From: Tepidisphaeraceae bacterium
Lineage (GTDB): Bacteria > Planctomycetota > Phycisphaerae > Tepidisphaerales > Tepidisphaeraceae
Reading direction: 5' to 3'
NCBI GenBank assembly: GCA_035998445.1
Contig: DASYHQ010000050.1
Span: 1-64,000, forward strand
Length of the DNA: 64,000 nt
The position numbers and the translations under genes were made by a program. Of the stretch, positions 2,519-38,738 are shown one piece after another. The stretch's first letter is position 1. Every line of letters begins with the position of its first letter. Under the pieces are notes generated by a model. The model was not told the DNA's origin and did no database searches. It saw only the letters and a list, made by a program, of their open reading frames with translations.

Positions 2519-2929
2519 TTACGACGCGGCGCCGACCAGTTCGCCCGCGGCTTCCTTGGCGGGGGCTTCCTTCTTGACCGCGCGCTTCTCGCTGAGGCGG
2601 ACGGCCTTGCCGACGCGATCGCGCAGGTAGTACAGCTTGGCCCGGCGGTTGACACCACCACGCTTGACGACCAGCTTGCTGATGAACGGGCTGTTGACCG
2701 GGAAGATACGCTCGACGCCCTCGTTGTTCACGATGCGGCGGACGGTGAACGTCTCATTCATGCCGCGGCCCTTGCGCATGATGACGGTGCCGCTGAAGAC
2801 CTGAATGCGTTCCTTCTCACCTTCGATGATGCGGGTGTGAACGTCGACGGTGTCGCCGATGTTGAAGGTGGGGACGTTGTCCTTCTTGAGGTACTGTGCT
2901 TCGACGGCTTCGAGGATCTTGTTGGTCAT
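2519..2929 (-). CDS. rplS: 50S ribosomal protein L19
   Basis: A 136-residue L19, which sits at the 30S-50S interface of the large subunit. The family signature is clear: GDTVDVHTRIIEGEKERIQ, FSGTVIMRKGRG, FTVRRI, GVERIFPVNSP and RRAKLYYLR. An alanine/lysine-rich tail of about 20 residues follows the conserved domain. The ATG at 2929 is the normal start, and an AGACACAGTC leader precedes it. It is last in the rpsP-trmD-rplS set, separated from trmD by 312 nt, so it may have its own promoter. A strong intrinsic terminator follows. Confidence 0.98.
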   Translation of the reverse strand: MTNKILEAVEAQYLKKDNVPTFNIGDTVDVHTRIIEGEKERIQVFSGTVIMRKGRGMNETFTVRRIVNNEGVERIFPVNSPFISKLVVKRGGVNRRAKLYYLRDRVGKAVRLSEKRAVKKEAPAKEAAGELVGAAS

Positions 2930-3241
2930 GACTGTGTCTCCGATCGTTTGGGCTTTGATTCGAGATTTCCGATCGGCGACGACAGTGCCACTTCAACACC
3001 GTCTACACATCAGAAATCGCGGAGCAAAAACCAAAAGTGGCCTTTCCGTGCGTCTGTTCGTCCGGGAATAACCGCATCCCGGGTCGGGTATCTTAACGAT
3101 CTTTCCTGCAGGATCAAACCTAATCTGAATCAGGTCTTATCGTGTATTTCGTTCGGATCGATCCGGTTGTTCCGGGATCAATCTTCTTGCTTCGTCTCAA
3201 ACCTCCCTACTGAAGTGGGAAGGCCAAACAGCTCGTGCGCC
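2930..3241. other. trmD-rplS spacer, no gene seen
   Basis: This 312-nt stretch contains no plausible coding frame. An imperfect short hairpin (about 3207-3221) lies just after the trmD stop. The length is unusual for this operon and would accommodate a separate rplS promoter and leader, but I see no convincing promoter or L19-leader structure by eye. Confidence 0.4.
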
Positions 3242-3946
3242 TCAGTTGTTTCCGTTTCGCGCTTTCCAAGCGTTCCACAGATCTGGTCGGCGCTGTTCGG
3301 TGCGTTGCTTGCGTTGCTGTAAACGCCAATTCGCTATCGCTTTATGATCACCGGACAACAGGATGTCGGGGACCGTCATCCCGTTGTACTCGCGGGGTCG
3401 CGTGTACTGGGGAAATTCAAGCAGTCCGTCGGCGAAGCTTTCGTCATCGGCGCCACCTTCGGCGCCGAGGGCGCCGGGCAGCAGGCGGACGATCGCGTCG
3501 ATCACGACCATCGCGCCAAGCTCACCGCCGCTCAGCACGTAGTCGCCGATGCTAAGTTCTATCGGCTGAAGCGTGTCGATGATTCGCTCGTCGAACCCTT
3601 CGTACCGCCCTGCCACCATCAGCAGCCGCTCTCGACCGGCCAGCTCGCGGGCGAGCGTTTGATCGAACACCCGACCTTGTGGCGACAGCAGGATGCGCGT
3701 CGCAGGTCGCGGGTCCTGATTTTCGGTCGCGGTGACGGCGTCGCAGAGCACCGTCGGCATCATCACCATGCCCGGACCACCGCCGAACGGCTTGTCGTCC
3801 ACCGACTTATGGGCGTCGGTCGCAAAGTCGCGAATGTTGGTCAGGTGGTACGAGACCAACCCTTTATTCGCGGCTCGCTTGGGAATGCTCGTGCCCAGGA
3901 ACGGGCCGAACATCTCAGGGAACAGTGTGAGGATATCGATGCGCAT
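3242..3946 (-). CDS. trmD: tRNA (guanine-N1-)-methyltransferase TrmD
   Basis: A 234-residue SPOUT-class enzyme that methylates G37 of tRNAs reading CNN/CGG codons, preventing +1 frameshifts; it uses S-adenosylmethionine bound in a trefoil knot. Visible are the N-terminal MRIDILTLFPEMF, the KPFGGGPGMVM loop, the knot motifs AGRYEGFDERI and SIGDYVLSGGELG, and the C-terminal EYNGMTVPDILLSGDH with WR. It lies 76 nt after rpsP; rimM, usually between them, is missing. The start ATG directly follows an intrinsic-terminator-like hairpin with no visible Shine-Dalgarno. Confidence 0.98.
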   Translation of the reverse strand: MRIDILTLFPEMFGPFLGTSIPKRAANKGLVSYHLTNIRDFATDAHKSVDDKPFGGGPGMVMMPTVLCDAVTATENQDPRPATRILLSPQGRVFDQTLARELAGRERLLMVAGRYEGFDERIIDTLQPIELSIGDYVLSGGELGAMVVIDAIVRLLPGALGAEGGADDESFADGLLEFPQYTRPREYNGMTVPDILLSGDHKAIANWRLQQRKQRTEQRRPDLWNAWKARNGNN

Positions 3947-4006
3947 AAAAGATTCGGGGTTCAGGCTTTAAGGACTCGCATCCCGTGTAAGACTGAACCC
4001 CGAATC
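3947..4006 (-). terminator. Attenuator-type hairpin between rpsP and trmD
   Basis: Perfect 14-bp stem (3993-4006 with 3951-3964, loop 28 nt), followed on the minus strand by TTTT that runs straight into the trmD ATG (3946). It should end part of the transcription after rpsP and also occupies the space where the trmD ribosome-binding site would be. Confidence 0.8.
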
Positions 4007-4022
4007 CTTGTTCATCAGCGAA

Positions 4023-4337
4023 CTAAGCCGACGCCTTCTCGGCCGGCGCTGCCTTGGGCTTGCCCGGCTTGGGCAACCGCAGCGACTTGTGCTCGACACC
4101 GCTACGCTTTAGCAGTGACGAGACGGTCTCGCTGGGGATCGCGCCCACTTCCAGCCAATGCCGGCAGCGGTCGATCTTGGCGACGAACTGCTTGTCCTTG
4201 TCCTTGTTCAACGGATCGTAGAAACCAAGCTCTTCGATCACGCGGCCGTCACGCGGCGTGCGCGAGTCGATCGCGTTCAAGCGATAGAACGCATGATTCT
4301 TCCGACCCATCCTCTTCAAACGCAGCTTTACCGACAT
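4023..4337 (-). CDS. rpsP: 30S ribosomal protein S16
   Basis: S16 of 104 residues, needed for 30S assembly. It begins MSVKLRLKRMGRKNHAFYR and continues with the family motifs NAIDSRTPRDGRVIEELGFYDP and WLEVGAIPSETVSSLLKRSG, then an alanine/lysine-rich tail. An in-frame ATG 46 codons upstream exists, but the MSVKLRLKR start at 4337 is the conserved one and has a purine-rich GAGAGAGAG before it. It is first of the minus-strand set rpsP-trmD-rplS; ffh and rimM, frequent neighbours elsewhere, are not present. Confidence 0.98.
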   Translation of the reverse strand: MSVKLRLKRMGRKNHAFYRLNAIDSRTPRDGRVIEELGFYDPLNKDKDKQFVAKIDRCRHWLEVGAIPSETVSSLLKRSGVEHKSLRLPKPGKPKAAPAEKASA

Positions 4338-21600: not shown

Positions 21601-21850
21601 AACGGCGAGGCTTCTCGTTCAATGGGAGGGCGTGTCGTTTACTCTGAGGGTTGCACAGTAAACGAGAGGGCGTGTCGTTTACTGTGAAGGGCTCAGGGTA
21701 AATGGGAAGACCGCAGGGAAAATGAGCGGGCGTGAGAGTAAATGCGCGGGCGTCAGGGTAAATGGGAAGGCCGCAGGGAAAACGAGAGGGTCGCGCAGTA
21801 AACGAGAGGGCGTGAGGGTTACTCTGAGGGCGTGAGAGAAAACGAGAAAG
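21601..21850. repeat. Degenerate 20-bp tandem array (array 2), 12 units plus a partial
   Basis: Units begin at 21601, 21621, 21641 and so on to 21841, an exact 20-bp period over 250 bp without a single indel, although units differ by up to half their bases. The middle word GAGGGCGTG is best conserved. The unit junction reads either AGTAAAC-like or its inverse GTTTACT-like, so the core occurs in both orientations. Because 20 is not a multiple of 3, the array cannot be a conserved peptide repeat. It lies between the pssA-side palindromes and gltX; no gene is seen in 21489-21989. Confidence 0.88.
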
Positions 21851-36498: not shown

Positions 36499-36861
36499 TT
36501 ACCCTCGGTATGGCTTGTGATCGGTGAGGATTCGCAGGCATGGCTGCGGACCCGACGCCATTTCCAGACCCCAAAGCGGCACGGCCTCCTGGCGGACGAT
36601 CTCCCCGAACCGCCCGGACAACGCGCCTTCCGAGACCACGTCGACATCGACCCCCAGCAGTTCGCGCAGGTCCATCAGCAGCCCGCCTTGGTCAAACAGC
36701 GAACGGCCTGGCTCGAAGCGCACCAGGAAATCCACGTCCGACGTCTCGGTCGCGTCGCCTCGCGCCACCGAACCGAACAGCCGCAGGTCCGACGCCCCGT
36801 ACCGCGCCGCCACCGCGATGATCTCGCCGCGCCGCCGGAGGATGTCCTGCTTGCGTACCAC
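36499..36861 (-). CDS. MNT-type minimal nucleotidyltransferase (MntA-like antitoxin), orphan
   Basis: A 120-residue protein of the minimal nucleotidyltransferase family, usually the antitoxin that AMPylates a HEPN toxin. Signature GSVARGDATETSDVDFLVRFEPG with the catalytic GS and D-x-D, followed by RELLGVDVDVVSEGAL. The expected HEPN (HepT) gene does not follow; instead a small membrane-protein gene starts 4 nt after the stop. The last 20 residues look atypical for the family, so the 3' end may be altered by loss of hepT. No toxin is visible nearby. Confidence 0.85.
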   Translation of the reverse strand: MVRKQDILRRRGEIIAVAARYGASDLRLFGSVARGDATETSDVDFLVRFEPGRSLFDQGGLLMDLRELLGVDVDVVSEGALSGRFGEIVRQEAVPLWGLEMASGPQPCLRILTDHKPYRG

Positions 36862-36925: not shown

Positions 36926-36980
36926 ATGAAGGGGTCGGGCGTCATTGCTCCACAGTATCGAAGACTACCGACCCCTTCAT
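36926..36980. repeat. Perfect hairpin upstream of the nucleotidyltransferase gene
   Basis: 13-bp perfect stem (36926-36938 with 36968-36980, word GAAGGGGTCGG), 29-nt loop, in the 202-nt spacer before the nucleotidyltransferase start. It has no T-run; it does not show the attC core of the neighbouring sites. Confidence 0.7.
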
Positions 36981-37062
36981 CTCCCCTCTGGTAACGAAGG
37001 GGATACAAATGCGGTGCGCGCCGAACTTACCCTTGACCCCAAAGGGGATTCACAGTTGTTTG

Positions 37063-37072
37063 GTTATGCGGC
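37063..37072. other. Third copy of the GCCGCATAAC core, containing a stop codon
   Basis: The plus strand reads GTTATGCGGC; on the coding (minus) strand GCCGCATAAC, whose TAA is the stop of the 87-residue gene. The partner half expected of a full attC is not found downstream (towards 36862), so the site appears truncated. Confidence 0.65.
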
Positions 37073-37327
37073 TGGACGGCGGGAGCGGGATTTGATTCGA
37101 ACCCAGCAGCCATCATCCACAACCAGCCAATGAAGCTTTGAGCCACCGACCGGATTCCGAAAACGGACTAATACCCAAGGTCCGTGCTCGTCAACGTCGC
37201 TGACAACCAGCACCCGTCGAGTGTCGATCAGCCGTTGCACAAGGGTGCGCGTAGACCGCTCCCGCCATTCGGGCGAGACGCGCACCATGCGAATGCGGTC
37301 ACCGAGTTGCAGAGGACGAAGCCGCAT
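37064..37327 (-). CDS. Cassette-like small protein bounded by the 10-bp core
   Basis: An 87-residue protein with no TM span: RPLQLGDRIRMVRVSPEWRERS, TLVQRLIDTRRVLVVSDVDEHGPWVLVRFRNPVGG, WLVVDDGCWVRIKSRSR. No family recognised; the beta-rich pattern suggests a small nucleic-acid- or ligand-binding fold, but this is a guess. The start ATG lies inside the core GTTATGCGGC (37321-37330) and the stop TAA inside the inverse core GCCGCATAAC (37063-37072), exactly as gene cassettes sit between attC sites. An ATG 13 codons upstream is possible but would start inside the attC-like hairpin. No Shine-Dalgarno is visible. Confidence 0.65.
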   Translation of the reverse strand: MRLRPLQLGDRIRMVRVSPEWRERSTRTLVQRLIDTRRVLVVSDVDEHGPWVLVRFRNPVGGSKLHWLVVDDGCWVRIKSRSRRPAA

Positions 37328-37427
37328 AACGGACCAGCATTCAACGGCCGGCACCGCGCCGACCAAACTTCAGTGTACCCGAACGCGTGACGCGGGGCCG
37401 GTCCGTTGCAATGCGTGGTTATGCGGC
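37321..37427 (-). other. attC-like recombination site (107 bp)
   Basis: Imperfect inverted repeat laid out like an integron attC. R-type boxes GCCGCATAAC (37321-37330) and GTTATGCGGC (37418-37427) pair 10/10. They are followed by an unpaired spacer (6 and 3 nt), an L-type stem (37337-37347 with 37402-37414) with two extrahelical bases, a further 11-bp stem with one mismatch (37348-37358 with 37391-37401), and a 32-nt loop. It lies between the stop of the 128-residue gene and the start of the 87-residue gene, both on the minus strand. The core fits the RYYYAAC/GTTRRRY rule only partly. Confidence 0.7.
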
Positions 37428-37446
37428 AGTTCCCCGGCACTTTCCT

Positions 37447-37833
37447 CTACCGTGACAGTTCAAACAGCAGCAACGGCACCGCGATCCGAAGCACGAAGAG
37501 CCCGAGAAGCACATTGATCGTCAGGCCCACAATGGGCAAGCCGCGACGCCGCCGACGCTGGAACATCGACACAATGCCCAACACCGTCCCCACCGCCGGC
37601 AGGATGAACGCGAGGCCAAAGAGCGTGCAAACCGTCCTGTCCATCGGCAGGGTGAATGGCCCGTAGGGCATATACCCAGAGGCGATCCGTCCCTGAATCG
37701 CCCAGAACACCACCATCAACGTCGCTGCCGCGGCAACCGCCACGCAGAACGATGCGATTCCCACCCCGGACCGCCGCAGTGGTGGCAGTGGTGGCGCATA
37801 TTCGAGTCGCTCAACCGAGTGTTCCTGCCGCAT
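37447..37833 (-). CDS. Small multi-span membrane protein in a cassette-like position
   Basis: 128 residues with three hydrophobic segments (SGVGIASFCVAVAAAATLMVVFW, CTLFGLAFILPAVGTVLGIVSMF, GLTINVLLGLFVLRIAVPLLLFEL), the later two separated by a basic RRRRRG, like DUF4190-type proteins. The start ATG (37833) sits in a TATGCGGC context, one base off the core GTTATGCGGC seen at the next gene; the attC-like hairpin follows the stop by 19 nt. That arrangement is gene, then attC. No function recognised. Confidence 0.65.
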   Translation of the reverse strand: MRQEHSVERLEYAPPLPPLRRSGVGIASFCVAVAAAATLMVVFWAIQGRIASGYMPYGPFTLPMDRTVCTLFGLAFILPAVGTVLGIVSMFQRRRRRGLPIVGLTINVLLGLFVLRIAVPLLLFELSR

Positions 37834-37836
37834 ACC
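37827..37836. other. Core variant GCCGCATACC at a gene start
   Basis: 9/10 match to the attC-like core GCCGCATAAC, overlapping the start codon of the 128-residue gene. It marks the upstream boundary of that cassette-like unit; no pairing arm for a full site is evident. Confidence 0.5.
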
Positions 37837-38037
37837 TACTATTAACCGGACCCCTGAACCTCGCAGATCGTGATAATTTGCGCTAGGCGCACAATATCAT
37901 TCCTTGGCACAGATGGCCAGAGGGGTGGTAAGGCAAGTGGCGAGCGATGTTTAAGGGGAGCTGGCAGGCGTGGGAATGGGACGAAAACCGGCGTGCGGCG
38001 CACATGAGTAGCCAGCCGGCGATTGTTGGGCGTGTGC

Positions 38038-38292: not shown

Positions 38293-38452
38293 CGCGCGAG
38301 GCGGGGGACATGAGGGAAACTGCAGCATACGTTCATGTTATCGACACGATCCCCCTGCCACTTGATCGCAATGTTGCCCGGCAGATTGTTTCCGCCATCC
38401 CCATTGACGAAAACGGGCGTCGACCGGCAATGGACGGCCCGGCGGCGGGTTG

Positions 38453-38738
38453 CCGCATAACGAAAGTAATCGTCCGCATAACGAAGCAAGGCAGCCGCGT
38501 AACGAAAGTAGTCGTCCGCATAACGAATCAAGGCGTCCGCATAACGAAACTGTTAAGCCGACGCTCGGAGTCGACAAGTCTCGTTATGCGGGCAATCAGA
38601 TCCGTTATGCGGGAGACAAGCTCCGTTATGCGGGTGACACGCACCGTTATGCAGCGGACAAGCCCCGTTATGCGGGTGACAAGCGTCGTTATGGAGCCGA
38701 CGAGTTTCGTTATGCGGCTGGTCGGATTCGTTATGCCG
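38453..38738. repeat. Bipolar 21-bp array of 13 units built on the attC-like core (array 3)
   Basis: Left arm: five units beginning CCGCATAACG-like at 38453, 38474, 38495, 38516 and 38537. Right arm: eight units of the opposite orientation, CGTTATGCGG-like at 38582, 38603, 38624, 38645, 38666, 38687, 38708 and 38729. Every step is exactly 21 bp. Left units 1 and 3 share one 9-nt filler (AGTARTCGT) and 2 and 4 another, giving a 42-bp super-repeat. Frames read through it in both directions only because 21 is a multiple of 3. The 471-nt gap 38293-38763 holds nothing else recognisable. Confidence 0.92.

Follow-up and report, generated by a model that had tools for sequence, protein, structure and literature searches.

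The stretch of DNA analysed here (the window, 64,000 nucleotides, positions 1-64000 of contig C50 of genome G000) contains two small minus-strand genes on either side of a long hairpin. The question is whether these are integron cassettes and, if so, how they came to lie where no integrase gene is found. The genome is a draft of 5.84 Mb in 64 contigs, 95.5% complete. Read along the minus strand, the locus consists of a left element, a gene for 128 residues, an attC site, a gene for 87 residues, the R'' box of a second attC and then foreign sequence. We consider it very probably a small, decayed integron array of two cassettes. Four of its features are read from the DNA sequence: the attC membership of the central site, the attI-like left edge, the changed core at that edge and the insertion-sequence end on the right. 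Arrays of attC sites lacking an integrase are common, and are usually explained by loss of intI or by insertion in trans at secondary sites.

The central attC site and its family

The preliminary description recognized the layout of attC at 37321-37427, and the boxes, the fold, a covariance model and covariation all agree with it. The site is a complete attC of cassette 1 on the minus strand, with an R'' box GCATAAC (37424-37418), an L'' arm carrying two extrahelical bases, a terminal stem-loop, an L' arm and an R' box GTTATGC (37330-37324). Exact copies of GCCGCATAAC and GTTATGCGGC are present at 37321-37330 and 37418-37427, respectively, the R'' and R' boxes are paired, and the GTT triplet of the G|TT crossover is intact. 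The single-strand fold, proposed earlier as a check, is strong: the 107 nt reach -36.1 kcal/mol on the plus strand and -35.8 kcal/mol on the minus strand (z of -5.0 and -4.8), and none of 200 shuffles folds as well on either strand.

The classical attC core is RYYYAAC / GTTRRRY, and the window core had been said to depart from it. This is correct, since GTTATGC has a T at the fifth place and misses GTTRRRY, yet the departure is usual for this family: of 44 sites, 34 have GTTATnY as their 3' core and only one has GTTRRRY, so that the odd window core represents a lineage variant (the 44 sites are 52 aligned rows minus seven reverse-strand echoes and one partial match). The window core satisfies the minimal form GNT, which is given along with GTTRRRY as an attC core form in the available text of PMC10127599.

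A covariance model built from four sites (the window, C7, C41 and C8) yields, at E<=3.4e-6, 33 sites in this genome; 29 lie outside the training set, and the count is a lower bound, as 150 of 10,477 first-look candidates were scored. Absence of a second attC from the genome had been named as an argument against cassettes; dozens of further attC are present, some of the 33 without recognisable R'' (C2, C56:664, C61 and C36:36665). Under stricter filters, matches were found in 11 of 61 genomes, namely this one and 10 of 25 relatives of the same family (11/26 of the family), and in none of 35 genomes from other families of the class. The single-contig genome G013 has 15 matches at about ten places, one of them beside its integrase. 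Applied to 80 integrase loci of a different collection, the model finds 24 matches in nine of them (three from Phycisphaerae, five betaproteobacterial and one labelled Methylococcaceae) and none in the 71 others, indicating that it does not cover attC in general. The attC are oriented opposite to intI in 23 of these 24 matches, the remaining one being an echo of a strong match, and the 13 matches outside Phycisphaerae (E 1.7e-10 to 0.0094) all lie upstream of intI on the opposite strand. This orientation is a property seen for the attC family, including C7 and C41 of the present genome, and not for the window site itself. The integrase of the locus labelled Methylococcaceae (L179, CADDYU010000222.1) shares 65% identity with the Phycisphaerae query, and four attC there match the model; the contig appears to have been wrongly binned or transferred.

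The family displays the traits of an imperfect hairpin, i.e. an L stem, extrahelical bases on one arm, a variable terminal structure and covariation. Over the 52 aligned matches, which include the four training sites and the seven reverse-strand echoes (none dropped) and whose alignment was fitted to the model's own structure and so favours covariation, both partners of a pair change in 203 cells, where shuffles give 90.6 (0/500 reach the observed value) and a control with slid partners at most 42. An Rfam search returned nothing useful.

A hairpin between two ordinary genes could also be a transcription terminator or a REP-type palindrome, and the strong fold on both strands and the abundance of other palindromic repeats near these loci would suit such a reading. 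We rejected it as extremely improbable: the R and L boxes are conserved, with bulges and covariation, the orientation opposite to intI recurs in another phylum, and a whole cassette is common to different genera up to such borders. The latter is a stretch of 1003 bp that is 89% identical between contig C59 and G013, although the left flanks differ; it starts within 8 bp of an attI-like crossover and ends in an attC, and G005 has 949 bp of it at 91% identity. Going by these alignments, cassettes of this attC family are mobile, and a cassette is common to different genera. On its boxes, fold and covariation, the site at 37321-37427 is a genuine attC; it is intact and could still recombine given an integrase.

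Two cassette genes and an attI-like left edge

The gene of cassette 1 (37447..37833, minus strand) codes for a probable small membrane protein of 128 aa. Its frame (37833-37447) has its ATG within GGTATGC, a core with one change, and stops 19 nt ahead of the attC, as first described. It has a match to DUF4190 (E 0.023), below cut-off. The gene of cassette 2 (37064..37327, minus strand) codes for 87 aa. Its frame, described earlier as beginning with an ATG in the core and ending with the TAA in GCCGCATAAC at 37063, was confirmed, running from the ATG at 37327 to the TAA at 37064. A TTG at 37366 also opens this frame (100 aa), which leaves the start within the core only plausible. Starting there does not hold for the family at large and was rejected as a rule of expression: 14 of the 44 sites have GTTATG, and eight of these 14 have an open frame of more than 70 codons there.

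Searches of Pfam and NCBIfam gave only matches below cut-off for both window cassettes. Sixty relatives were searched for the two proteins: the 128-aa protein has weak matches in seven (best E 8.5e-5, 33%, in G015), the 87-aa protein has one doubtful match (E 0.003) in one further genome, and the two genes are conserved together in none, whereas a conserved order would have spoken against the cassette interpretation put forward initially. No close or high-identity copy of the window cassettes was found at a second place in this genome or the relatives searched. The weak relative of the 128-aa protein in G015 is encoded 14 nt before an attC. By eye an attI-like junction lies ahead of that gene, but its matrix score (8.1) is below the 95% control value (9.9), and BLASTP gave no alignment between the 128-aa protein and this relative. 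A gene with a nucleotidyltransferase domain (PF01909, E 9.1e-12) adjoins the array at 36499-36861.

The first reading of the locus included neither an attI-like left edge nor the truncation of the second attC by an insertion-sequence end. The left-edge element (37833..37900, minus strand) spans 68 bp, belongs to what we call group B and has an ATTATC box at -42. It is 82% identical to a counterpart on C57 and 78% to one on C12, each of which continues TAATAGTAG|TTAT, and has a weaker likeness to the start of C41 (68% over 152 bp). The recombination junction, TAATAGTAG|GTATGC (37830..37844, minus strand), would have its crossover between 37836 and 37835. It differs by one mismatch from TAATAGTAGTTAT, its GTT having become GGT: the window has GGTATGC, the group B relatives GTTATCC or GTTATTC. 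The attI adjacent to intI ends in TAATAGTAG or TATTAGTAG, followed by TTATGC. By this resemblance, the left edge of the window can be regarded as attI-like with a changed core. The change from GTT to GGT probably lowers use of the left junction. We do not call the junction dead, as PMC10127599 reports laxity at the middle position of GNT, so that a GGT junction need not be inactive.

Sites within one mismatch of TAATAGTAGTTAT number 11 in the genome, compared with two for a reversed control, and nine of them lie no more than 1 kb upstream of a detected attC; of the other two, C57:331 is about 2 kb upstream of an attC and C7:114234 has no convincing attC nearby. Nine of the 23 arrays of this genome have TAATAGTAGTTAT within one mismatch and four more have AATCACTAG|TTA, a group spotted by its recurrence after the fact and not distinguishable by mismatches alone. 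The ten others have neither, and two of them (C5 and C8) have less than 360 bp of upstream sequence. As a control, none of 2000 random 1500-bp pieces, all taken from the window, came within three mismatches of TAATAGTAGTTAT, and 61 reached four. For the relatives, a matrix from 21 edges was applied to 33 arrays, made up of L049, L087 and 31 of the 35 loci fetched. Ten of the 29 non-training arrays exceed the 99% control value (11.4), seven of these also the control maximum (14.7), and 19 stay below the 99% value. An upstream GTTAT-like box occurs at 19 of 35 hand-collected edges, a selected set with some members below the matrix control values, against 3.4% of random pieces. It is present at the intI-adjacent attI of G013 and G020, and absent from the group A edges of this genome (the true attI among them), from its group E edges and from the attI of G021. 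Group A edges have 37 to 108 bp in common with the true attI, the intI start excluded, a pattern that fits dispersed acceptors and leftovers of separate integrons without intI alike.

These data bear on whether the cassettes entered through a secondary target of the attG type, with the attI-like look of the edge reflecting a short preference of IntI itself. Both attG and secondary-site insertion are in print (PMC10127599, PMC12444791), and the former paper states, in the text available, that attI-like sites are frequent across genomes; the ten arrays without an attI-like edge and the 19 low-scoring arrays of relatives would agree with such an entry. Against it stand the sharing of the 68-bp element with other arrays, the excess of the GTTAT-like box at the edges (tempered by its absence from the true attI of this genome and that of G021), and the placement of most TAATAGTAGTTAT-type sites just upstream of attC. 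On balance we consider entry through a secondary target unlikely.

A second attC cut by a probable insertion-sequence end

Following cassette 2, the R'' box of its attC is present (37063..37072, minus strand) and the remainder is missing, the site being truncated directly after R''. What adjoins it (36987..37058, minus strand) very probably derives from an insertion sequence of the IS110/IS1111 type, a kind defined by a DEDD transposase and a non-coding end for a guide RNA. The element would have entered between R'' and L'', and the window retains about 70 bp of it, from the non-coding end only. The same end follows R'' at five loci (the window, C59, C18, C20 and G005), although the DNA search, with a 105-nt query from the window, may have missed copies. 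On C20 (L116, about 2552-4036) the end sequence reaches an IS110-type transposase (PF02371, E 3.8e-21; PF01548, E 1.1e-7) flanked by the two halves of an attC, whose sequence resumes past GGGATTGCATGGGTTCTC. The copy in G005 (L158) has the same two ends and a shortened transposase, and on C2 (L106) the second of these ends precedes part of an attC. By eye, the element has a subterminal inverted repeat near ATG(C)AATCCC.

As this sequence directly follows R'' and includes a short CCCC-TTT-GGGG stem, it could instead be taken for a cassette terminator or for an attC of another type. This alternative was rejected because a transposase lies between the attC halves on C20, with the attC continuing on the other side; the G005 copy, with its matching ends, also argues against it, and the right-edge stretch folds no better than shuffles (z -0.92). 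We regard it as very unlikely, and retain the insertion-sequence end as the explanation of the right edge. Cassette 2 is no longer excisable as a normal cassette. Insertion of IS110/IS1111-type elements at one end of an attC resembles what is reported, in the portion of PMC11187229 available, for the IS1111-attC elements ISKpn4 and ISPst6, as does the subterminal repeat; the present element differs in being phycisphaeral and in having left a single end in the window. A REP-like inverted repeat (36926..36980, no strand assigned) abuts the remnant, and similar palindromes of 53-62 bp are present at six other integron loci of this genome.

Integrase supply and origin of the array

The preliminary description had reported no integrase in the window. 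This holds for the window, where genome searches likewise placed no integrase gene beside an attI, but not for the genome, which has intI fragments at three contig ends (C5, C7 and C41). Two of these (C7 and C41) lie beside an attI and a first cassette, so the lack of any integrase, also named at the outset as an argument against cassettes, does not apply. No complete integrase was found in this 95.5% complete genome: the integron integrase model scored above cut-off in four of 61 genomes (G005, G013, G020 and G021), and the present genome was below it. At the end of C5, an 85-aa frame tracks the IntI of the family through SASSQNQA, a motif of the full-length proteins, before it diverges and stops; this only copy traceable beyond residue 47 thus ends after about 73 residues. 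Its first 47 codons have identical copies at the ends of C7 and C41. The fragment matches integron integrases with an E of 1.6e-11 against 0.058 for XerD. Upstream of the intI start, C7 and C41 have attI that are 99% alike over 280 bp including that start, and attC are present at both, yet their first genes differ (a DUF4240 gene on C41, E 4.7e-37), which implies that two or more attI-intI junctions existed in the genome. Contigs break at common 141-bp stretches at integron loci (the ends of C5, C7 and C41 and the starts of C39 and C57), which probably represent an assembly fork.

The array most likely formed as follows and then decayed at both ends. An IntI supplied from elsewhere in the genome would have bound the folded single-stranded attC hairpins of the cassettes and joined them at G|TT to the attI-like site, so that cassettes 1 (128 aa) and 2 (87 aa) came to follow one another along the minus strand. 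The core of the left junction would afterwards have changed from GTTATGC to GGTATGC, and an IS110/IS1111-type element would have inserted between R'' and L'' of the attC of cassette 2 and then been largely lost. We infer the single-strand recombination, this order of events and a low present activity. More tentatively, the integron of this Phycisphaerae family might be distributed: several groups of attI-like acceptors would be scattered over one chromosome, each heading a small integrase-less array, with one or two integrases acting on all of them in trans, and the acceptors would have been copied around the genome; in many of them a GTTAT-like box precedes G|TTATnC by about 32 bp. Such an arrangement is possible, if doubtful. 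The recurring attI-like heads suggest dispersed dedicated acceptor sites as a third route to integrase-less arrays, and provide defined sequences that can be assayed with an integrase.

Several elements of this scheme are already in print, as far as the available portions of the papers cited here go: integrons in Planctomycetes, integrase-less arrays (CALIN), secondary-site insertion, delta-attI cassettes and attC-targeting IS1111 elements. Both intI and attC are reported in Planctomycetes, with attC conserved within taxa (PMC2426708, PMC8352920); the present genome shares these components and differs in its many small arrays away from intI and its mostly GTTATnY core. The window array resembles CALIN (PMC9668308, PMC12444791) in having small genes in one orientation separated by attC with no integrase nearby, but has one complete attC and one R'' half, where PMC12444791 sets a threshold of two attC, and an attI-like left edge. 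In the delta-attI cassettes of class 1 and 2 integrons, partial attI sites recombine (PMC12901181); those replace the attC 3' of a gene inside an array, whereas in this genome it is the left edge of separate arrays that is attI-like. The attG or attI-like secondary sites of PMC10127599 and PMC12444791 share insertion at chromosomal positions away from the integrase, and differ in that several loci of this genome have recurring left-edge elements of about 35-108 bp. A literature search, with most subscription papers outside it, yielded no paper on integrons in Phycisphaerae and no description of a genome with numerous arrays that lack an integrase and start at recurring attI-like elements.

Beyond the array, exact or near copies of GTTATGCGG at 38453-38738 were considered as further attC and rejected, as they are 21-bp units in two inverted halves. 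This repeat array (38452-38738) has halves of five and eight units, with a conserved core CGTTATGCGG and variable 11-bp spacers, and holds nine of the 17 copies of CGTTATGCGG in the genome; the core is the same as in the nearby attC, which is hard to put down to chance. Arrays of about 21-bp period with other units are present at 1-101 and 21686-21819 (20 bp) of the window, and more were seen by eye at L022:1220-1410 and around 1501-1700 of L014, such arrays recurring in the genome.
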